Shown here: positions 1 to 39,989 of the stretch, one piece after another
Layout: every line of letters begins with the position of its first letter
Numbering within the stretch: position 1 is the stretch's first letter
Source: Sinomonas cyclohexanicum
GTDB taxonomy: Bacteria; Actinomycetota; Actinomycetes; Actinomycetales; Micrococcaceae
Direction: 5' to 3'
Assembly: GCF_020886775.1 (NCBI RefSeq)
Contig: NZ_AP024525.1
Coordinates: 434,001-498,000 of the forward strand
DNA length: 64,000 nt
Notes under the pieces: model-generated
Told to the model about the DNA's origin: nothing
Seen by the model: only the letters and a program-made list of their open reading frames with translations
The model's database searches: none
Program-made: the position numbers and the translations under genes

Positions 1-172
1 AGTGGAGCTCCGCGGCGATCTTCTCGATCCGCTCGCGGGTGCGCGCGTTGACCCGCTGGGGGTTGGACAGGGCGCGGGAGACGGTCGACGTCGCGACGCC
101 GGCCCGCTCTGCGATGTCGCGGATGGTCGGCATGCGTTCGGCGGCGTCGGTGGCCCCGGAAGTCTCGGTCAT
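1..172 (-). CDS. LacI-family transcriptional regulator, N-terminal part (cut by window edge)
   Basis: Only the DNA-binding end is inside the window. The reverse strand reads MTETSGATDAAERM, then the classical LacI helix-turn-helix (PTIRDIAERAGVATSTVSRA) and hinge-helix start (NPQRVNARTRERIEKIAAEL). Sugar-binding domain lies outside. Two in-frame ATGs exist (172 and 181); neither has a convincing ribosome binding site. It is divergent from the uronate ABC operon, and an operator-like palindrome lies in the 140-bp gap, so it is the likely repressor of the uronate genes that follow (inference). The effector cannot be read from this fragment. Confidence 0.85.
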   Translation of the reverse strand, partial: MTETSGATDAAERMPTIRDIAERAGVATSTVSRALSNPQRVNARTRERIEKIAAELH

Positions 173-193
173 GACATCCATTGGAGCAGGCGT

Positions 194-4547: not shown

Positions 4548-5966
4548 GTGACTGACTCCATCGCCGCCAACCCTGACCGACTCCTGCCGGCCGACCCCGG
4601 GACCCGCCAGATCGCGCGGGAGCTGCTCGCCGACGTCGAGGACCTGCCGATCATCTCCCCGCACGGCCACGTGCCGGCGGAGTGGATCGCGGACGACACG
4701 CCGTTCCCCGACCCGACCGCGCTCATCGTGAGTCCGGACCACTACGTGACCCGACTCATCCATGCCAGCGGCGTGGAGCTCGACCAGCTGCGGGTCGCTG
4801 GCACGACGGCGGTGGACTCCCGGACCGCGTGGCGGAACTTCGCCGAGGCCTGGCCTCTGTTCGACGGCACAGCCTCGGGGTACTGGCTGAGGAGCTCGTT
4901 CGAGCACGTCTTCGGCCTGCCCGGGGACGTGGTCGACGCCCTCGGCGCTGACAACGCGGACGCCGTGTACGACGCGATCTCCGCGAAGCTCGCCGAGCCG
5001 GGCTTCCGGCCGCGGCAGCTGTTCAAGGACTTCGGCATCGAGGTCCTCGCCACGACCGACGACCCGCTCGACTCCCTCGAGGCGCACGCCCGCCTCGCCG
5101 CGGACCCGACGTTCGCGGGCCGCGTCCTGCCCACCTTCCGCCCCGACCCGTACATCAACGTGGCCCACCCCGAGTGGAGCCGGCGCGTGGACCGGATCAC
5201 GGCGGAGGCGGGCGACGGCGCGGCCGGCTACACGGGCTACCTGCGCGGCCTCGAGAACCGCCGCCAGTACTTCGTGGAGCACGGCGCCGTCTCGGCGGAC
5301 CACGGCGTGCGCACGCCGCTCACGCTCAAGCTCGAGCGCGCGGAGGCCGAGGCGCTCTTCGAGAAGGCCCGCCGCGGCGAGGCGACGGCCGCGGACCGCG
5401 ACGCGTTCGAGGGCCACATGATGGTCGAGATGGCGCGCATGAGCGTCGAGGACGGCCTCGTCATGACGATCCACCCGGGGTCGTACCGCAACCATCACGC
5501 CCCCACGTTCGCCGAGTACGGCGCGGACACCGGCCACGACATCCCGTTCGCGATCGACTACACGGCCGGTATCCGGCCCCTGCTCGAGGACTTCGGCACC
5601 GCACGCGGCTTCCACCTCGTCCTGTTCACGCTCGATGAGACGGTGTTCTCCCGCGAGCTCGCCCCCCTCGCGGGCTTCTACCCCTCGGTGTACATCGGTG
5701 CTCCGTGGTGGTTCCTCGACGCGCCAGACGCGATGCTGCGGTTCCGCTCGGCCGTGACCGAGACGACGGGCTTCACCCGCACCTCCGGCTTCATCGACGA
5801 CACGCGGGCGTTCTGCTCGATCCCCGCCCGCCACGACGCGTCGCGCCGTGTCGAGGCGAGCTTCCTGGCGCGGCTCGTCGCCGAGCACCGCGTGACCGAG
5901 GCCCGGGCGCACGAGATCATCGTCGACCTGGTCGACGGGTCCCCGCGCCGCGTCTTCAAGCTCTAG
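4548..5966 (+). CDS. uxaC: Glucuronate (uronate) isomerase
   Basis: Converts D-glucuronate to D-fructuronate (and galacturonate to tagaturonate), first cytoplasmic step of hexuronate breakdown. 472 residues, close to the 470 of the E. coli enzyme. The amidohydrolase-fold metal motif ISPHGHVPAEW lies near residue 37; other family marks are MTIHPGSYRNHH and the C-terminal SVYIGAPWWFLD and RHDASRRVEASFLARLV. GTG 4548 was chosen because GAAGAGAAGAG precedes it. It is followed 10 bp later by uxuB, which uses its product. Confidence 0.95.
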   Translation: MTDSIAANPDRLLPADPGTRQIARELLADVEDLPIISPHGHVPAEWIADDTPFPDPTALIVSPDHYVTRLIHASGVELDQLRVAGTTAVDSRTAWRNFAEAWPLFDGTASGYWLRSSFEHVFGLPGDVVDALGADNADAVYDAISAKLAEPGFRPRQLFKDFGIEVLATTDDPLDSLEAHARLAADPTFAGRVLPTFRPDPYINVAHPEWSRRVDRITAEAGDGAAGYTGYLRGLENRRQYFVEHGAVSADHGVRTPLTLKLERAEAEALFEKARRGEATAADRDAFEGHMMVEMARMSVEDGLVMTIHPGSYRNHHAPTFAEYGADTGHDIPFAIDYTAGIRPLLEDFGTARGFHLVLFTLDETVFSRELAPLAGFYPSVYIGAPWWFLDAPDAMLRFRSAVTETTGFTRTSGFIDDTRAFCSIPARHDASRRVEASFLARLVAEHRVTEARAHEIIVDLVDGSPRRVFKL

Positions 5967-27826: not shown

Positions 27827-30820
27827 ATGTCCGCGAACAATGACTCCCTTTTCCCCGGTGTCCTACACCGGGGGATTGTCCACAAGCTTGAGCCCGGAGT
27901 CGAGGCGGCCGGCGGGGAGCTCACCTTCTCCCCGGACTACACCGTGACGAGCACTGACGACGACGGCGGCCGCGTGCTCACGGGCGTCGAAGTCATCCTG
28001 GTCTTCTGGGGAAGCTTCTGGAGCACGACGCCGCCCCCGTCCCCGTCCCGTGCCCAGTACGAGCAGGCCATGGAGGGAATCGTGACCGGCCCCTACATGA
28101 CCGGTCTGGGCCAGTACCGCGGGGTGGGTCCGGGAAGCATCGTCTTCAGCGAGATCTTCGACGGGACGAGCCCGGCCAACAACTACACGGACGCCGACGT
28201 CGTCGCGATGCTCAAGGGCCGGTTCGCGAACAATGCCTCGATGCCGAAGCCCGCCGCTGGCCACAACCGGTTCTACGCCGTGATCGTGCCCCAAGGCGTC
28301 AGCAACAGCCTGACGCAGTTCGCGGGGCAGCACCAGAGCCTCACCTACAACGGCCACACTGCGTACTACGCCTGGGTGGACAACACAGGGTCGCTGACGG
28401 GCAGCAACTCGACAACCAAGGTCTTCTCCCATGAGCTCGTCGAGGCCTGCACGAACCCGGACGTCGACACGTCGAACAACTCGATCCTCGTCCAGGGCAC
28501 CAAGCCGGGAGGGGGAACCGTCAAGAACGACGAGATCGGCGACACGTGCAACGGCGAGTTCGCCACCGTGGACATGAACGGGATCACCTGCTCGGTCCAG
28601 AGCTACTGGAGCAAGTCGGACAACACCTGTGTGCTCCCGCTCGGCTCAGTGTCCTTCTGGGTGGACAAGGACACATTCGGCAAGGACGAGGTCCAAGACC
28701 TCATCAGCACGACAGGCGGCAGGGTCGAGAATGCGTTCTGGCTCGTAGTGGAGGGCTTCAGCCAGACGACGTTCGGCTCCCTCAACGTGTCGACGCCGAC
28801 GCCGACGGGCCCCTTCGCCGGGATTCCCGGGGTGACAATCGCACCGAACGGTGCCGTCGACTTCGAGAACGCCGCACAACCTGACGAGCAGCAGCGCATC
28901 CGGGTCGCTTTCGACATCACGTTCTCTGCCTCGTCGCTCGCCTCCTTCCCCACAGCCGGGAGTCAGACCTACGCACTGGACGCCTACCTCGCGACCGACG
29001 GCGCGAAGGTGCCTTCCACAGACACCTCGACCCTTTTCGAGCTCGTCGCGGGAGCCGACCCATACTTCGCCAACATCGACCCGGCCCAGGGCAATGTCTT
29101 CTACTTGAGCCAAGACTTGCGGGTGTTCACGGCGACGCCGGCCCTGAACGGGACACCCGTGCCGGGAGGCCCGGCATTCCTCGCCGACAGCACCTCCGGG
29201 GCCTACGGCTACATCCAGGCGCTGCTGACGTGGCTCAATGCGACGTACTCGAACCCCGCGGGGGTCGACCCGTTCGCCACAGCACTCCCCGGGCAGGGCT
29301 CCGCACTTGAAGGGGACTCGTCCGTCACTCCCTTCACGTTGGACCTCAACCACTTTCCTCCAAGGGCAGACAGGAACTACCAGTTCGCGGTCGCCCGAGT
29401 GCGCATGCGCGGTTCCTCCGGTGCGGCCGGCGCCGCGAATGGGGTGCGGACCTTCTTCCGGCTGTGGTCTTCCCAGACCGCGGACACGGACTACCAGACG
29501 GCCTCGACGTACCCGAGCGTGACGGACGCGAATGGACTCCCGGCCTCACCGCAGGTCGGGGCAGGGCACACGACCCTGCCCTTCTTCGCCTCCGGCAATC
29601 TGGGAGCGAATAGCGACTACGGCGCCGGCGGCGCGAACACGCGCGACCTGGTGATTCCCGCGGGCGAGGACAGCGTCTGGGCCTACTTCGGGTGCTTCCT
29701 GAACATCTACGACGCGTCCTACGTCATCGACGGACGCACCGTCCAAGGCTGGCTGAACGGCACCCACCACTGCCTGGTCGCCCAGATCGCGTACGACGGC
29801 GCGCCTATCTTCGGCGGGGCAACGCCCGAGGGCTCGGACAAGCTCGCGCAGCGCAACCTGCAGGTCACCCATTCCGACAACCCAGGGCCGGCGTCCGCGC
29901 ACCGCATCCCGCAGACGTTCGACCTGCGGCCCAGCCCGCTGGGGGCGATCGACGGCGTCGACGAACTCATGGTCGACTGGGGCGGGATTCCCCCGGGAAG
30001 CACCGCCTCGATCTTCTGGCCCCAGGTCGACTCGGACCAGGTCCTTGCCCTCGCGGCCGAGCGGCATCCCACGCACGGCCTCTCGGCGGACGGCCCGCAC
30101 GCGATCCGCTGCGCCGTGACCGGCGGCGTCTCATACATTCCCATACCGGCCGCGGCGGGCGAGAACTTCGCCGGCCTGCTGACGGTCGACCTCCCGACCA
30201 CCGTGACCGTGGGAGACGAGTTCGACGTCGTGGTGCGCCGCCTAGGCCACAAGGCGAACCGGATCCTGGAGTTCCGTGAGGGCGGGGAGCCGCGAGAGCC
30301 AGCCGGCGAGCGGCCCGCAACCCGCGGCGGCGACACCTGGCGGTACGTCGTCGGAACGTTCTCCGTGAAGATCCCGGTGGCTACGGCCGAGACGATGCTG
30401 CTGCCCGAGGAGAACACCCTCGCCATCCTGCGCTGGCGACTCGGCCAGCTCGCTCCGGACGACCGCTGGCACCCGGTCCTCGAGCGCTACGTCGAGTACC
30501 TTGCGGGCAGGGTCGCGGGTCTGGGCGGAGACCCTGACACGATCCTTCCCTCGCAGACCGGAGTCCCGGTCCGCGGCAAGGAGCCGTGCGGCGACATGCT
30601 AGAGCACACCGGACGCGTCGAGGAGGTTCTCTTCGACTGCCACGGGCGCATCGAGGGCTTCCTCCTCCTTGGCTGCTGCGACGAGCGGCATCGCTACGCC
30701 ACCCGGGATCCGGGGCTCGGGAAGCTGATCCTGCGCGCCTGCCGAGAGCGCCTCGACCTCGTGGTGCTCTCGCCGCTGCACCGCCAGAATGAGGTGGTGC
30801 GCATCATCGTGCGGGGATGA
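27827..30820 (+). CDS. Large modular protein with HELVEA metalloprotease-like motif, 997 residues
   Basis: No signal peptide or membrane segment. Residues 1-280: an alpha/beta start (GVEVILVFWGSFW) and a zincin-like motif H202-E203-xx-E206 in FSHELVEACTNPD, followed by EIGDTC and SYWSKSDNTCV. Residues 280-830: beta-rich, unassigned, containing repeated Thr/Ser/Pro segments. Residues 840-920: VGTFSVKIPV and LAILRWRLGQL, then YVEYLAGRVAGLGGDPDTI. Residues 930-997: a small Cys-containing module (VEEVLFDCHGRIEGFLLLGC). The last two modules recall pieces found in many large bacterial proteins of unknown role. ATG 27827 has CCGGAG upstream; ATG 27800 is the alternative. Its end overlaps the convergent oxidase gene by 17 bp. 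Confidence 0.75.
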   Translation: MSANNDSLFPGVLHRGIVHKLEPGVEAAGGELTFSPDYTVTSTDDDGGRVLTGVEVILVFWGSFWSTTPPPSPSRAQYEQAMEGIVTGPYMTGLGQYRGVGPGSIVFSEIFDGTSPANNYTDADVVAMLKGRFANNASMPKPAAGHNRFYAVIVPQGVSNSLTQFAGQHQSLTYNGHTAYYAWVDNTGSLTGSNSTTKVFSHELVEACTNPDVDTSNNSILVQGTKPGGGTVKNDEIGDTCNGEFATVDMNGITCSVQSYWSKSDNTCVLPLGSVSFWVDKDTFGKDEVQDLISTTGGRVENAFWLVVEGFSQTTFGSLNVSTPTPTGPFAGIPGVTIAPNGAVDFENAAQPDEQQRIRVAFDITFSASSLASFPTAGSQTYALDAYLATDGAKVPSTDTSTLFELVAGADPYFANIDPAQGNVFYLSQDLRVFTATPALNGTPVPGGPAFLADSTSGAYGYIQALLTWLNATYSNPAGVDPFATALPGQGSALEGDSSVTPFTLDLNHFPPRADRNYQFAVARVRMRGSSGAAGAANGVRTFFRLWSSQTADTDYQTASTYPSVTDANGLPASPQVGAGHTTLPFFASGNLGANSDYGAGGANTRDLVIPAGEDSVWAYFGCFLNIYDASYVIDGRTVQGWLNGTHHCLVAQIAYDGAPIFGGATPEGSDKLAQRNLQVTHSDNPGPASAHRIPQTFDLRPSPLGAIDGVDELMVDWGGIPPGSTASIFWPQVDSDQVLALAAERHPTHGLSADGPHAIRCAVTGGVSYIPIPAAAGENFAGLLTVDLPTTVTVGDEFDVVVRRLGHKANRILEFREGGEPREPAGERPATRGGDTWRYVVGTFSVKIPVATAETMLLPEENTLAILRWRLGQLAPDDRWHPVLERYVEYLAGRVAGLGGDPDTILPSQTGVPVRGKEPCGDMLEHTGRVEEVLFDCHGRIEGFLLLGCCDERHRYATRDPGLGKLILRACRERLDLVVLSPLHRQNEVVRIIVRG

Positions 30821-32099
30821 TGCAGGCCCGCCCGATCTCGTCCACGCCCGTCACCCCGGCCACGGCCATCGTGAGGTCGAACTCGGCGCGGAAGCCCTCG
30901 AACACCGCACGCGCGCCATCCTCGCCGGCGAGCGCGAGCCCGTACATGTACGGCCGCCCGATGCACACGGCGTCGGCACCGAGAGCGAGCGCCTTGAACG
31001 CGTCCGCCGCGCACCGCACGCCCGAGTCGAACAGGACCGGCACGCGCCCGCCGACCGCCTCGACGATCCCGGGCAGCGCATCCAGCGACCCGATCGCCCC
31101 GTCGAGCTGCCGCCCGCCGTGGTTGGAGACGATGATCCCGTCCACGCCGTGCTCGAGGGCGGCCCGCGCGTCGTCCGGATGCTGGAGTCCCTTGACCAGG
31201 ATCGGGAGGCGCGTCCGCTCGCGCAGCCATGCGAGGTCGGGCCACGTAAGCGTGGTCCGCGCGAAAACGTCGAGGAATGTCTCGACGCTTGCACGCGGCA
31301 CGGGGGAGGCGAGGTTCTCCCGGAACCCGCCCGGGTGCTCCCGTGCCAGCCGCACGAGCGAGCGTACCGCCGCGGGGGTGGGGCGCGGCGTCGTGCGCTC
31401 CGCGGACCCCGAAGCGGAACCGCCGCCCGCGGCGATCCGCGCCGCGACGAGTCCGCGGAACGCGGGGTCGGAGGTGTACTGCGCGATCCCCATTCCGCGC
31501 GCGAACGGCAGGAAGGCGTTGTCGAGGTCGAGGGTGCGCCACGAGAGCACCATCGTGTCGAGGGTGACGACGACGGCGCCGCACCCGGCGCGCTCGGCTC
31601 GCCGCACGAACGAGTCGACCACCGTGTCCTCGCTGCTCCAGTACAGCTGGAACCACCGCTCGTGATCGCCGAGCTCGGCCGCGATCGTCTCCATGGGATG
31701 GGAGGCCTGGGACGAGAGGACCATCGGCACCCCTGTGGCGCGCGCGGCGCGGGCGACGGCGAGGTCCCCGGCCGGGTGCGCGAGCTCGAGGACGCCGATC
31801 GGGGCCGCGAGGAAGGGGGAGGGGTGGCGGCGGCCGAACAGCTCGATCGAGGGGTCCCGTCGGGAGACGTCGCGGCCGAGCCGGGGCACGAGCCGCCACC
31901 TCTCGAACGCGGCGCGGTTCGCGGCGATCGTCGAGCCCATCCCGGCGCCGGTGGCCACGTAGCCGCGGGCCTCGCGGGACATCGAACCGAGGGCGCGCCG
32001 CTCGAGTTCCGTGGGATCGGTGGGCACCGCGGGGCGCCTGCCGAAGACGCCATCGCGGTAGATCCGTGCCTGGACTCGCCGGCCGAAGGACTCGCTCAC
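30804..32099 (-). CDS. FMN-dependent alpha-hydroxy-acid oxidase (lactate 2-monooxygenase type)
   Basis: 431 residues of the glycolate oxidase/lactate monooxygenase family. FMN and active-site motifs: LAAPIGVLELAHPAGD, FQLYWSSED, LVKGLQHPDDARAALEHG and SNHGGRQLDG (catalytic His and Arg), then VLFDSGVRCAADAFKALALG. An insert of about 60 residues in the middle, characteristic of lactate monooxygenases, is present. It would oxidise a 2-hydroxy acid with oxygen. Substrate unknown; it follows the monooxygenase operon on the same strand. Confidence 0.88.
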   Translation of the reverse strand: MSESFGRRVQARIYRDGVFGRRPAVPTDPTELERRALGSMSREARGYVATGAGMGSTIAANRAAFERWRLVPRLGRDVSRRDPSIELFGRRHPSPFLAAPIGVLELAHPAGDLAVARAARATGVPMVLSSQASHPMETIAAELGDHERWFQLYWSSEDTVVDSFVRRAERAGCGAVVVTLDTMVLSWRTLDLDNAFLPFARGMGIAQYTSDPAFRGLVAARIAAGGGSASGSAERTTPRPTPAAVRSLVRLAREHPGGFRENLASPVPRASVETFLDVFARTTLTWPDLAWLRERTRLPILVKGLQHPDDARAALEHGVDGIIVSNHGGRQLDGAIGSLDALPGIVEAVGGRVPVLFDSGVRCAADAFKALALGADAVCIGRPYMYGLALAGEDGARAVFEGFRAEFDLTMAVAGVTGVDEIGRACIIPAR

Positions 32100-35634: not shown

Positions 35635-37161
35635 TCAGTGGTCTGCGGCGACGAGCGTCGCCGCGGGGACGTAGGGCTTCTCGGCCCAGCTGTAGTTGGT
35701 GGCGTCCTGGCCGCACTCCTCCGGGGAGAGGCTCATGTAGGCGAGGGCGCCCCCCAGATCGGGCGGCTGGATCTCGCCGGCGAGGAATCGGTCCACGAGG
35801 GTGGTGTGGCCCGCGAACCGCTCGGGCTGCTCCTCGAAGATCCACTTGCAGGGCACGGAGCAGAAGTTGTACTGACGGCCTTCGTGGACCAAGGTGTGCG
35901 GCAGCGGGCTGTCGAGCTTTCCCGCGGCATGGCCCGCCGGAGTGCAGATCGGGACCTGGCACATGTTGCAGACGATCGGCAGCGTCTCGGGGAGGGTGAG
36001 TTCTTCGTGGCCGTCGCGGATGTTCTCGCCCACGACGTCCCAGTGCCGCCCGAAGGTCTCGTTCCAGCCGGGGTACTTCGACTCCAGCCAGTCGCGCTCC
36101 TCCGGCGAGACGCCGGCGTCGGGGTTCCACCAGACGGTCGGACGCCAGGTCCAGACACCCTCGTGGTAAGCGTGGTGGAGCCAGTCGAGCTCGGGCAGGA
36201 AGTGCTCGTCCCAGTACCAGGGCTTCTCCAGGCCGAAGTCCCTGAACTGCTCGAGGAACTGCTTGACGATGAACTCCTCCATGAACTCCTTGAAGGAGTG
36301 CGTGCGGTGCTCGAGCGGCGTGTAGTAGTCCATCGACAGGCCCGTCAGCAGCGCGAAGACCTTCCACGACCGCCAGAACATGTGGTCGACCAGCTTCTGG
36401 GCAATGTCCTTCCTGCCCTGCTCGATCAGGATCTTCACGGTCGGCTCGCCCTGCTGCGAGTGGCGTGCCTCGTCGGTCTGGATCGAGGAGATCAGCGAGC
36501 CGAAGTCGACGTCGCCGACCTTCATCGCGTCTGCCGCCATGCCCAGGAACTGCAGGTTGGTGAAGCCTGTCTCGAAGGTGAAGGTCAGCTGGATGGCTGT
36601 GGAGACCGCGTCGTTGGCAGCGAACATGTCGTCGAAGAGGCTGCGCGCGGCAATGGCGGCCCATTCGTTGGTGTGGAAGGCCTTGTGGGCCCAGTCGGCC
36701 CGCGGCTCCTTTGCGAGCAGGCCGTACGGGAAGTAGGTCTGGATCTGCCCGTGCCGGGTCTCGTCCAGCGTGCCGTACATCGCCATGTTGCGCCATGCGG
36801 CAGCCCGGCCGAAGCGGCCCATCCGCGACTCGCCGATGCCGGCGACGTATTCGGGGACGGCGATGGCGCCGTAGTGGGCGAGGATGGCGGACTTCCAGCC
36901 CGGGTCGAGCGATTCGAAGATCTTCGAGCGCCCGACGACTGCGTTGACGGCGTACACCGAGGCGTCCTTGCCGTACTGGTTGTGGACGTACTCCGTGTAG
37001 GTCACCTTGTACGGCTCGTCCCAGGACCACCAGTCCTGGGCGGCGACGCCGTAGCTGTTGGACATCTCCACGGGGAAGACGTCCTTCTCGTCGACGTATG
37101 AGAACGTCCAGTTCATGTCGCGCGTGAGGTCATACCACTGCGACCGCTCAAGGCTCGGCAC
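35635..37161 (-). CDS. tmoA: Soluble diiron monooxygenase hydroxylase alpha subunit (TmoA/IsoA type)
   Basis: 508 residues. Both iron-binding helix pairs are intact: E104, E134 and H137 (LDETRH), E197 (FETGF), E231 and H234 (TDEARH), which equal the numbers in toluene 4-monooxygenase. Pocket positions I100, A107, Q141, F176, F196, T201 and F205 are the same; position 103 is Pro where TmoA has Gly. The C-terminus carries Cys pairs (VCNMCQVPIC, FCSVPCKW) resembling a metal-binding YHS domain. GTG 37161 has AGGAG upstream. It hydroxylates or epoxidises an aromatic or alkene; substrate not determined. Confidence 0.93.
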   Translation of the reverse strand: MPSLERSQWYDLTRDMNWTFSYVDEKDVFPVEMSNSYGVAAQDWWSWDEPYKVTYTEYVHNQYGKDASVYAVNAVVGRSKIFESLDPGWKSAILAHYGAIAVPEYVAGIGESRMGRFGRAAAWRNMAMYGTLDETRHGQIQTYFPYGLLAKEPRADWAHKAFHTNEWAAIAARSLFDDMFAANDAVSTAIQLTFTFETGFTNLQFLGMAADAMKVGDVDFGSLISSIQTDEARHSQQGEPTVKILIEQGRKDIAQKLVDHMFWRSWKVFALLTGLSMDYYTPLEHRTHSFKEFMEEFIVKQFLEQFRDFGLEKPWYWDEHFLPELDWLHHAYHEGVWTWRPTVWWNPDAGVSPEERDWLESKYPGWNETFGRHWDVVGENIRDGHEELTLPETLPIVCNMCQVPICTPAGHAAGKLDSPLPHTLVHEGRQYNFCSVPCKWIFEEQPERFAGHTTLVDRFLAGEIQPPDLGGALAYMSLSPEECGQDATNYSWAEKPYVPAATLVAADH

Positions 37162-37362
37162 CTATGGCTCCTTCGGATTGGTGTGCTTTGGACTGAATTG
37201 ATGTGTTGAGGTGAATTGATGCGCAACTGGGGTAGGGGTGGCCTCCGCGGGGGCTGCGGGTGGCCCGCCGCAGATGGCCGCGATTCCGCACGAGGTGCAA
37301 GCTCTGGGCGGAGGCTGGTGTGACCGCTGTTCGTGCGCACCTGACCGGGTGTCAGTGCTCAT
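37162..37362 (-). CDS. Small ORF (66 residues) coupled to the monooxygenase alpha-subunit gene
   Basis: Unrecognised. ATG 37362 has an excellent ribosome binding site (AGAGGAGG, 6 nt before), and its TAG stop ends one base before the GTG of the alpha subunit, whose own ribosome binding site lies in its last codons. The peptide is His/Pro/Thr rich with a Cys cluster (ACTSCGIAAICGG) and a short internal repeat (HQFTSTHQFS). Could be a small protein of the operon or a leader controlling translation. Composition is unlike the neighbours. Confidence 0.55.
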   Translation of the reverse strand: MSTDTRSGAHEQRSHQPPPRACTSCGIAAICGGPPAAPAEATPTPVAHQFTSTHQFSPKHTNPKEP

Positions 37363-37453
37363 GTCGGGCCTCCTCTTGGTCGTGATGCCGGTACTTTCCT
37401 CGGATCCTTGGTTCGTCTGCATCCAGAGTGATCGCCTCGCCCCTCACAGACCC

Positions 37454-37467
37454 GGGTGAGATCACCC
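37454..37467. promoter_or_regulatory. Palindromic operator-like site, upstream copy
   Basis: GGGTGAGATCACCC: 6-bp arms with a 2-bp centre. It is the first of two such sites in the control region between the divergent monooxygenase operon and the LuxR-type regulator. Confidence 0.65.
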
Positions 37468-37508
37468 ATCTCGACTACCCGTATTGTGGTGGGCATCACA
37501 GGACGGTC

Positions 37509-37532
37509 ATGGGTGCAGGGTTCTCGCCCTGA
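37509..37532 (+). other. Possible 7-codon leader ORF
   Basis: ATG at 37509 in the upstream copy of the duplicated start region opens MGAGFSP and a TGA stop. The ribosome binding site (ACAGGACGG) is weaker than that of the regulator. It may be translated, or be a relic of the duplication. Confidence 0.35.
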
Positions 37533-37541
37533 TCCAGGTCA

Positions 37542-37555
37542 GGGTGAAGTCACCC
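37542..37555. promoter_or_regulatory. Palindromic operator-like site, downstream copy
   Basis: GGGTGAAGTCACCC with the same 6-bp arms as the site 88 bp upstream; 41 bp before the regulator start codon. Confidence 0.65.
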
Positions 37556-37595
37556 CCTCGGCTACCTGTATCGTGTTTGGCATCACAGGAGGGTT

Positions 37596-39989
37596 ATGAG
37601 CACTGCTGCACTGGTCGGCCGCATGTCCGGGGGCCAGGGCCTTACGAGCTTTGTCGGCCGCCGGCGGGAGCTCGCCGAGATGCGCGATCTCATGTCACGC
37701 TCGCGGCTGCTGACGCTCGTGGGCCCGGGCGGTGTGGGCAAGACGCGCCTCGCCGTTGAACTGACGGCGAGGTCAGGGGCGTCCTTCCGGGACGGCACGT
37801 GGCTGGTTGAGCTGGCGGCGTTGGAGGACGGCGACTTGGTCGGATCCCAAGTTGCCGCTGCCCTGAGGCTGCCCGACCAGTCCAACCGGTCGGCCCTTGA
37901 CCGGCTCGCGGACTACCTCAGGGAACGCGAGCTCCTGATCGTCGTCGACAATTGTGAGCACCTGCTCGACGCCGTCGCCCCGCTCGCGTCCGAGCTCCTC
38001 GAGGTGGCCCCGGGGCTGCGGATCCTCGCGACGAGCCGTGAGCCGCTCGGGATCCCCGGCGAGCAGGTCTACAGCGTGCCGCCACTCCCTGCGCCTGCAG
38101 AATCGCAGCCAGGGGCCGACCCCCTCGAAGGGTTTGAATCGGTGCGCCTGCTCGTGGACAGGGCCCGCAGCGTGGACCCGACCTTCGAAATCACCGACGC
38201 CAACCGAAGCGCGGTCGCGCAGCTGTGCCAGAGGCTCGACGGCATGCCGCTGGCGATCGAGCTTGCGGCCTCGCGGTTGCGCTCCCTCTCAGTCATCCAG
38301 CTCGTGGAGCGGCTCGACCGGCGCTTCGACCTCCTCACCGGCAGCAGCCGCGTCGCCGTCCCGCGGCAACAGACCCTTCGGGCGCTCGTCGACTGGAGCT
38401 ACGAGCTCTGCAGCCCGGCGGAGCGGCTCCTGTGGGCGCGTCTGGCGGTGTTCCCCGGGGGATTCGACCTTGAGGCCGCCGAGGACGTCTGCGGCTTCGG
38501 CGAGGTCACCCGGGAGGACGTCCTGAACCTCTTGGACCGCCTCGTCTCCAAGTCGCTGGTCTTGGCCGAGCGGCTCGAGGGCCCTCGTGAACTGGGCGGC
38601 GGCCGTGTGCGCTACCGCCAGCTCATGACCTTCCGGGAGTACGGCGCCGAACTCCTCGACGCCGCGGGCGAGGCCTCCCAGCTGCGCCGCCGGCAGCGCG
38701 ACCACTTCCTCGCGCGTGCCGCACGAATGGTCTCGTCATGGTGCGGGCCTGATCAGGCCGAGCGTCTCGCAGCGGCCCGGAGGGACCACGCGAATCTCCT
38801 GTCGGCCCTTGACTGGTCGGCCTCCATCCCGGGGGAGGAGCTCGCCGGAATGCGCCTCGCGGCGCTACTGAGGTACCACTGGCACGCTGGTGGCAACCTC
38901 AGCGACGGGCGCCGGTGGCTCGACCGCCTCCTGGCGCTCTCGTCCGAACCCAGCCCCGAACGCGGCAACGCGCTCTGGGCCGCCGCATGGGTCTGCCTCG
39001 TCCAGGGCGACAGGGACCTCGCCCGCAGTTACCTGCAGGAGTGCCGGCGCGTCGCACACCTGCTGAATGATCCCGTTCTTGCCGCCCATGCCGACCACTG
39101 GGACGCCCTGCGCGAGCTCTTCGAGGGGAATCTCGAACCCGCACTGGAAATGTTCGACGCGGCCATCGCCGTCCACCGCCGGGTCGGCGACACGATGTCG
39201 GCACTCATAGCGCTCTTCCAGCGGGCGTGGGCCCAAACGTATGCCGGACTTACCCAAGAAGGTCTCGCCGCGTGCCAGGACGCCATCAGGGAAAGCGAGG
39301 AGCTTGGTGAACGATGGACCCAGGCCTATTCCCATTGGGTGTCGGGACTCTGCCAACGCGATCTGGGTGACCTCGAGGCCGCGCGCCAGTCTCAGATCGC
39401 TGCGCTCGAGATACAGCAGGGCTTCCTGGACGGAATCTGCATCGCGCTCACGATCGATGAGATGTCGTGGACGGCTGCCTCCACCGGGCGCTACGAGAAC
39501 GCCGCAGTCCTCTTCCACACGGCACAGTCCGTGTGGAAGGGCCTGGGGACGACGATCGCGGCCTTCGGCCCGCACCTCCGAGCCGATTCGGAACGGGCCG
39601 AGTCCCTCATCCGGCGCGAGCTCGGCGAGCCTCGCTTTGAGGCCATCCTCGTTCGGCCAGCCGTGCCGACTGAGGAGAGGGCCATTGAACTCGCTCTGGC
39701 CACGGCCCGATCAGGACGCCCTGCGCGGGGGACTGTCACGACGCCGCGGCCGGAGGGCGAGACGACGCCCCCGGGCCCCAAACTCACCAAACGGGAACAC
39801 CAGATTGCGGCTCTCGTCGCCGAAGGCCGCAGCAACAAGGAGATCGCAGCGGCCCTCGTCGTCTCTCCCCGGACAGTGGACGGCCACGTCGAGAACATTC
39901 TCGCCAAGCTGGGGTTCACCTCTCGGGTCCAGATCGCGGCGTGGATCGCTGGCTACACCGGACCGGAACGGACGGCAACCTCTCCGTAG
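37596..39989 (+). CDS. Large ATP-binding LuxR-family regulator (NB-ARC ATPase, TPR-like region, LuxR HTH)
   Basis: 797 residues. N-terminal ATPase: FVGRRRELAEM, Walker A LVGPGGVGKTRLA near residue 42, Walker B LLIVVDNCEH, and sensor LATSREPL. Middle: helical repeats of TPR type (residues 400-640). C-terminus: LuxR helix-turn-helix (LTKREHQIAALVAEGRSNKE, then AAALVVSPRTVDGHVENIL). Divergent from the monooxygenase operon and so its probable activator; the inducer is unknown. ATG 37596 has AGGAGGG a few bases upstream. Confidence 0.92.
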   Translation: MSTAALVGRMSGGQGLTSFVGRRRELAEMRDLMSRSRLLTLVGPGGVGKTRLAVELTARSGASFRDGTWLVELAALEDGDLVGSQVAAALRLPDQSNRSALDRLADYLRERELLIVVDNCEHLLDAVAPLASELLEVAPGLRILATSREPLGIPGEQVYSVPPLPAPAESQPGADPLEGFESVRLLVDRARSVDPTFEITDANRSAVAQLCQRLDGMPLAIELAASRLRSLSVIQLVERLDRRFDLLTGSSRVAVPRQQTLRALVDWSYELCSPAERLLWARLAVFPGGFDLEAAEDVCGFGEVTREDVLNLLDRLVSKSLVLAERLEGPRELGGGRVRYRQLMTFREYGAELLDAAGEASQLRRRQRDHFLARAARMVSSWCGPDQAERLAAARRDHANLLSALDWSASIPGEELAGMRLAALLRYHWHAGGNLSDGRRWLDRLLALSSEPSPERGNALWAAAWVCLVQGDRDLARSYLQECRRVAHLLNDPVLAAHADHWDALRELFEGNLEPALEMFDAAIAVHRRVGDTMSALIALFQRAWAQTYAGLTQEGLAACQDAIRESEELGERWTQAYSHWVSGLCQRDLGDLEAARQSQIAALEIQQGFLDGICIALTIDEMSWTAASTGRYENAAVLFHTAQSVWKGLGTTIAAFGPHLRADSERAESLIRRELGEPRFEAILVRPAVPTEERAIELALATARSGRPARGTVTTPRPEGETTPPGPKLTKREHQIAALVAEGRSNKEIAAALVVSPRTVDGHVENILAKLGFTSRVQIAAWIAGYTGPERTATSP

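Follow-up and report, generated by a model that had tools for sequence, protein, structure and literature searches.

How does the gap between a regulator gene and a divergent catabolic operon come to hold two copies of a control module, and what might each of them do? The question is raised by a locus of Sinomonas cyclohexanicum (genome of 4.41 Mb, one contig), within the 64,000-nucleotide stretch of DNA analysed here, which we call the window and whose numbering we use throughout.

The regulator and its divergent neighbours

The regulator gene, luxR for short (37596-39989, forward strand), encodes a protein of 797 amino acids with GerE, AAA_22 and TPR_12 domains above the Pfam cut-offs. The C-terminal LuxR/GerE helix-turn-helix (PF00196, 62.5 bits, residues 729-783) and the N-terminal AAA_22 P-loop ATPase domain (residues 35-127), together with the size of the protein, identify it as a LAL-type member of the LuxR family. 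It is not a MalT equivalog, as it scores 33.9 bits against the NCBIfam model PRK04841, for which the cut-off is 537 bits, and matches in the helix-turn-helix part only. As expected of LAL regulators, its activation would be ligand- and ATP-dependent, and it is presumed to bind its own operators.

On the reverse strand, with 434 bp from the luxR start to the start of its alpha-subunit gene, lies a divergent monooxygenase operon. The alpha subunit (35635-37161), of the toluene/o-xylene diiron type, is encoded by the first of six subunit genes that extend to 32643; it matches the ToMO and T4MO structures across residues 2-495 and is 89-90% identical to homologues on two Rhodococcus plasmids. The group 1 soluble diiron monooxygenase set, described in the accessible part of PMC8784404 as alpha, beta, gamma, coupling protein, Rieske ferredoxin and reductase, is complete here: five subunits are recognized by Pfam, and the small gamma frame is assigned by its position, a 91% match in Sinomonas sp. 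ASV486 and tblastn matches in four plasmid operons. A short open frame preceded by a strong ribosome binding site separates the alpha gene from the control region (37162-37362, reverse strand; 66 amino acids, with the motif CTSCGIAAxC) and is likely the first translated frame of the operon or part of a long leader. Its first ~37 codons are kept in ASV486. Profile searches with a frame including it gave no family match and no convincing homologue was found, the weak tblastn matches resembling low-complexity ones.

A tandem duplication shared by two Sinomonas species

The control region contains a repeat of about 77 bp, longer than the roughly 57 bp originally assigned to it. Self-alignment places copy 1, the luxR-distal and monooxygenase-proximal one, at 37436-37511 (repeat-search core 37470-37511), and self-alignment and repeat search place copy 2, at the luxR start, at 37523-37598, both on the forward strand. 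Each copy holds a palindrome, a TACCYGT motif, a CRP-like 16-mer, a ribosome site and an ATG. The palindromes, GGGTGAGATCACCC at 37454-37467 and GGGTGAAGTCACCC at 37542-37555, are presumed LAL operators; both are exact and both are unchanged in ASV486. The third motif reads TACCCGT in copy 1 (37476-37482, forward strand), where the spacer that precedes it has one base more than those of copy 2 and most relatives, and TACCTGT in copy 2 (37563-37569, forward strand), where the spacing is that of the relatives. The original description holds for the coordinates, the palindromes, the ribosome-site-like GGCATCACAGGA, the two ATGs and the spacing of 87/88 nt.

The exact palindrome GGGTGA-NN-TCACCC occurs at two places genome-wide, both of them here, and so does the composite motif; the reversed-pattern controls gave no match in either case. 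Local alignment of copy 1 with copy 2 scores 76, against a maximum of 44 in 2,000 first-order random sequences. On this alignment and the genome-wide palindrome count, a chance repeat was rejected. Only the exact palindromes carry weight, because matches with up to two mismatches are no commoner in the window than expected (3 versus 4.5). A scan for sigma-70-like promoters found none in either direction. By eye, possible -10 hexamers (TATTGT/TATCGT) are visible inside the copies, without a matching -35, and a weak candidate -10 of a divergent promoter, CACTCT (37425-37430, reverse strand), corresponds in position to CAT(G/T/C)GT in four Rhodococcus relatives.

That the control region of the LAL regulator is tandemly duplicated, as originally proposed, is borne out by Sinomonas sp. 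ASV486, whose regulator is 94-95% identical to that of the window and which carries both copies; the duplication is found in both of the Sinomonas genomes with the regulator (2 of the 15 genomes of the genus examined). The ASV486 copies align to each other even better (score 97), and the upstream part of the repeat, CTCGCCCTTC, matches between them too. They place the beginning of the repeat at CTCGCCC, which makes it a head-to-tail duplication of a unit of 86-87 bp with the luxR start codon inside.

The block from 37406 to 37595 (190 bases) is identical between the two species at 183 of 188 aligned bases. These five differences compare with about 23 expected at 12% and about 17 at the 9% of the beta gene; at four-fold sites the species differ at 29/241 positions in alpha, 15/170 in beta and 96/479 in luxR (10/69 in its first 300 nt). 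The linker between the copies is likewise kept, with 28/28 aligned bases identical except for a small length change. Conservation thus extends over the whole block with its linker and does not by itself mark out the arms of the palindromes. The arms are indeed unchanged between the copies, which was originally taken to suggest selection on the two operators, but GGCATCACAGGA is unchanged as well. The same comparison bears on the idea that a single operator is enough and that one of the two copies is a redundant or non-functional remnant. Relatives have a single copy between the genes, and in copy 1 of the window the spacer is changed and the ribosome site is weaker; against this, both copies, with their TACCYGT motifs and CRP-like sites, are nearly identical across two species that differ at 9-20% of four-fold sites, and we regard a remnant as distinctly unlikely.

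Comparison with ASV486 also bears on how the seven-codon frame behind copy 1 (37509-37532, forward strand) should be regarded. The upstream ATG opens seven codons in the window, as described earlier; its counterpart in ASV486 begins a frame of 29 codons that ends on the luxR start as ATGA. The change of frame is caused by the change in linker length, the two ATGs being 87 nt apart in the window and 86 nt in ASV486. The ribosome site of copy 1 also differs, reading GGAGGG in ASV486 and the weaker GGACGG in the window. Conservation of a seven-codon leader between the two species is ruled out, and a functional leader peptide, as suggested by the original prediction, was rejected on the differing length, stop and frame relative to luxR and on the differing ribosome site. 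Control of luxR by such a peptide through attenuation or translational coupling is thus highly improbable. A ribosome site does precede the start codon, and the 29-codon frame does overlap the luxR start; however, neither length, stop nor frame is shared between the species, the window's ribosome site is the weaker one, and no terminator-like site, as an attenuator would have, was found. The frame is best read as a copied luxR start, which would have arisen as a by-product of the duplication.

A single-copy element in relatives

Relatives in Rhodococcus, Nocardia, Enemella and further genera, some belonging to the same family as the window, have one copy of the element upstream of the LAL gene: the palindrome, 6 nt, and (C/A)TACCYGT, oriented toward the LAL gene. 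Copy 2 of the window has this composite structure in full, and copy 1 has it with one extra spacer base (7 versus 6 nt). With a matrix built from nine non-Sinomonas elements selected by eye, the ASV486 copies score 29.6 (copy 2, identical in sequence to that of the window) and 15.6 (copy 1). With L062 added as the tenth element for the later scans, the window copies score 29.3 (copy 2) and 14.7 (copy 1). The low score of copy 1 is due to its longer spacer: when one spacer base is removed, it scores 32.4.

We scanned a hold-out set of 73 loci (627 kb) outside the ten-element training, without the loci retrieved by the pattern itself. At a score of at least 20 there were 7 matches, compared with a mean of 0.17 and a maximum of 3 for 60 column-permuted matrices. 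Three of these, in the near-identical L066, L067 and L069, are located some 0.9 kb past the LAL gene rather than before it, and two more are in L092. At a threshold of 15 there were 12 matches versus a permuted mean of 3.0 and maximum of 16. Because this lower threshold is not clean, the elements of L063 (16.1), L077 (17.1), L019 (12.8 when left out) and L020 (28.2, but with its near copy L019 in the training set) are weak assignments. No other locus scanned has two strong elements in tandem between a LAL gene and a divergent gene. Second matches occur in L092 (33.4, about 4.7 kb away), in L062 (20.3, just past the 3' end of the LAL gene) and in L016 (16.5, inside the divergent gene).

The element follows one clade of the LAL regulators. 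A tree of 37 proteins, comprising the window protein and those of 36 of 45 LAL loci (L052, L057, L060, L061, L067, L069, L076, L083 and L084 were left out as fragments, near copies or not supplied), places the Sinomonas proteins in a clade of 17 rows with 100/100 support. The element was assigned as upstream in 15 of the 17 rows, and as a single upstream copy in 13 of the 15 non-Sinomonas rows, 3 of the 13 by weak scores. L065, with a score of 17.1 at 537 nt upstream, was labelled as lacking the element, and L063 and L077 as having it; L077, a weak case, falls outside the clade. In the two rows that lack the element, L005 and L055, a gene for an acyl-CoA dehydrogenase precedes the LAL gene on its strand (recognized by Pfam for L005 and by tblastn for L055, where the gene is in pieces).

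The genes on the divergent side of the 13 loci are of several kinds: a flavin monooxygenase in seven (PF00743; L014, L015, L016, L017, L021, L062 and L063), a flavin reductase in four (PF01613; L056, L058, L059 and L092, with HpaB next in L058) and a diiron monooxygenase operon in two (PF02332; L019 and L020). The flavin monooxygenases were read by eye as Baeyer-Villiger type, and the first frame of the L019 operon gave no family match.

These data bear on the possibility that a different regulator, and not the adjoining LAL protein, recognizes the palindrome. Of 394 genomes of the class, 8 contain a strict form of the pattern, and the control gave no match. Its places are the window genome (copy 2 only), L062 (a LAL-flavin monooxygenase locus), three related LAL loci, L095, L093 and L096; those in L093 and L096, at genes without a visible link, are probably chance. 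The three related loci have the pattern about 0.9 kb beyond the LAL gene, and at L095, where it stands 63 nt before a flavin hydroxylase-like gene (PF01494), the 3-kb locus, partly masked, contains no LAL gene. Nor is such a LAL site described in the literature examined, where the one LAL site given for a Rhodococcus catabolic promoter, that of TpdR, is a 15-nt direct repeat (PMC6099782). These three points would fit another regulator. Yet the element tracks the fully supported LAL clade across several kinds of partner gene, and four of the seven strict-pattern places outside the window genome are within about 1 kb of a LAL gene. We therefore consider another regulator to be a doubtful alternative, slightly more so than a remnant copy.

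Each module also contains a 16-mer that resembles the GlxR consensus TGTGA-N6-TCACA (given in the accessible text of PMC4254451): TGTGGTGGGCATCACA in copy 1 (37485-37500, 9/10 consensus positions) and CGTGTTTGGCATCACA in copy 2 (37572-37587, 8/10). Of 13 loci, the window included, 10 have a match of at least 8/10 on the right-hand side of the palindrome; six of the loci are Rhodococcus-type relatives and not independent, and random 62-nt windows reach 8/10 in 0.8% of cases. The offset is 11 or 16 nt in nine of the ten loci and 32 nt in L063. L059 has only a 7/10 match (offset 16), and L021 and L020 have none. In the genome, a frame of 228 aa matches the CRP-type helix-turn-helix strongly (E 3e-19), and two further matches narrowly pass the family cut-off. 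The 16-mer could be either a CRP site or a part of the LAL site.

Spacing and a possible division of labour

With start codons chosen by ribosome site, the distance from the palindrome to the divergent start is 55-98 nt in 12 of 13 relatives, the exception being L092 (270 nt). It is 90-98 nt in six flavin-monooxygenase loci (65 nt in L063), 67-74 nt in four flavin-reductase loci (of which L057 is a near copy of L056) and 55 nt in L020, or 67 nt from the next start. In the window, the ATG of the small frame is 91 nt from the palindrome of copy 1 and 179 nt from that of copy 2, and the alpha start codon is 292 nt from copy 1. The small-frame start of ASV486 is 135 nt from palindrome 1, a distance attributable to an insertion. 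The palindrome of copy 2 ends 40 nt before the luxR ATG. Based on these spacings, we infer that copy 1 acts on the divergent operon and copy 2 on luxR. The original idea that the control region also serves the monooxygenase operon is likely correct; the composite element stands next to the LAL genes of relatives too. Relatives with one copy and the same regulation had been named as evidence against the duplicated operators; of these two features, only the single copy was observed.

It is also possible that both copies are tandem autoregulated luxR promoters, comparable to PalkS1/PalkS2, that give low basal and high induced expression, any divergent use of copy 1 being incidental. Both copies point toward luxR, each with TACCYGT and a CRP-like site as well as its ribosome site and ATG, and AlkS works via two promoters and positive feedback (PMC8784404, as far as its text is available). 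However, the single element of the relatives aligned is likewise oriented toward the LAL gene despite a divergent monooxygenase or flavin reductase gene, so this orientation does not exclude a divergent role, and copy 1 stands at the relatives' distance from the divergent start. We judge tandem luxR promoters unlikely, though the likeliest of the alternatives.

We instead propose, with a probability of roughly 0.57, that a shared bidirectional LAL operator module was duplicated in tandem and that each copy now serves one of the two divergent units. The ancestral state would have been that of the relatives, with a single module that stands between the LAL gene and the divergent gene, for a monooxygenase or a flavin reductase, and probably served both. 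In Sinomonas, the 86-87-bp unit, including the luxR ribosome site and start codon, was then duplicated, such that copy 1 kept about the old distance to the divergent operon and copy 2 came to sit at the luxR start. With one copy near the operon and the other at luxR, each divergent transcription unit would have an operator to itself. The substrate or product of the enzyme presumably activates the regulator, which is expected to bind both copies; copy 1 would turn on the monooxygenase and copy 2 would control luxR itself. A CRP-type protein may add carbon-source control, and the seven-codon frame would be a leftover start codon.

The module appears to be a genuine and conserved element of control, ordinary in kind and informative in detail. 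More tentatively, and at less than even odds, the LAL gene with its LAL/CRP-like bidirectional operator may be a portable cassette that has been paired with several unrelated types of monooxygenase across actinobacteria, the duplication in Sinomonas having split the operator into one for each divergent promoter and uncoupled self-regulation from output. For a clade of LAL regulators, the element offers a recognition site that can be tested, and it predicts monooxygenases of several chemistries as targets. The Sinomonas locus would be a natural example of tandem duplication turning one shared divergent operator into two, which can be set beside relatives that have a single copy, and the module could be used as a part of sensors for hydrocarbons or ketones.

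Relation to known systems

Neither the palindrome nor the element was found described in the literature searched, which was searched by words and not by sequences, with subscription journals mostly outside its range; the accessible parts of PMC11057499 and PMC6160575 contain nothing on the composite element. The enzyme itself is of a familiar kind. The operon resembles those of toluene/o-xylene and toluene-4-monooxygenase in the structural match of its alpha subunit, and its subunit order is that of the Rhodococcus plasmids. It differs from its Rhodococcus and Xanthobacter counterparts in its regulator: tblastn of 6-7 kb on the flanks of three Rhodococcus plasmid operons and of the 10 kb around the Xanthobacter operon found no LAL homologue, and the plasmid operons have no strong element (best matrix scores of 11.4, 12.7 and 9.8 in L088-L090, none of at least 9 in L091). 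Because these plasmid operons, with alpha subunits 77-90% identical, lack a LAL homologue in the flanks searched and have no strong element, the partnership with a LAL regulator is not general for this enzyme.

Among LAL regulators, the prototype MalT also binds repeated boxes (PMC6099782, available part), but these are decanucleotide direct repeats; PcaO of Corynebacterium is another LAL activator (PMC9582017, available part). AlkS and TpdR are compared with the Sinomonas system here by their published descriptions. TpdR, which acts at PTTMP in Rhodococcus jostii TMP1, is a 788-aa LAL activator of an actinobacterial catabolic operon with two repeated sites; its proposed site, a direct repeat, is unlike GGGTGA-NN-TCACCC (both from the accessible text of PMC6099782). 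AlkS of Pseudomonas putida GPo1 belongs with a different enzyme class and phylum, and in the part of PMC8784404 available its operators are not given as tandem module copies between divergent genes. Like the arrangement that we propose for Sinomonas, however, AlkS is a LuxR/MalT-type activator with inverted-repeat operators both before the monooxygenase (PalkB) and before a promoter of its own gene (PalkS2), which has two promoters and is subject to positive feedback (PMC8784404).

Monooxygenase alpha subunit and the neighboring dehydrogenase

The alpha subunit of the diiron monooxygenase (35635-37161, minus strand) is 89-90% identical to homologues encoded on plasmids of Rhodococcus ruber and R. 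oxybenzonivorans, and this level of sequence identity suggests that the gene has been transferred horizontally. A search of the 7-kb flanks of these plasmid homologues for a homologue of the large ATP-binding LuxR-type (LAL) regulator returned none. Located 3' of the reductase gene, and on the same (minus) strand, is a gene for an FMN-dependent dehydrogenase (30804-32099; PF01070), which is perhaps a member of the pathway.

A small open frame preceding the alpha gene

The alpha gene is preceded by a small open frame (37162-37362, minus strand; MSTDTRSG...CTSCGIAAICGG...). In a two-species comparison with Sinomonas sp. ASV486, approximately 37 N-terminal codons are kept and the changes in the Cys-rich core are, as judged by eye, mostly synonymous; the C-terminal end diverges, with the ASV486 stop at codon 55.

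Composite elements and CRP-like sites in other genomes

In the genome search, one strict match to the composite pattern (L095:1501-1528) precedes a flavin hydroxylase-like gene (PF01494) by 63 nt; this 3-kb locus, which is partly masked, contains no LAL match. Four other loci (L014, L016, L017 and L063) carry an additional CRP-like site (8-9 of 10 positions) left of the palindrome, on the side that faces the monooxygenase. On the Rhodococcus sp. USK10 plasmid (L092), two strong elements (146-177, minus strand; 4879-4910, plus strand) are separated by ~4.7 kb, and the locus also holds a second LAL-like gene.
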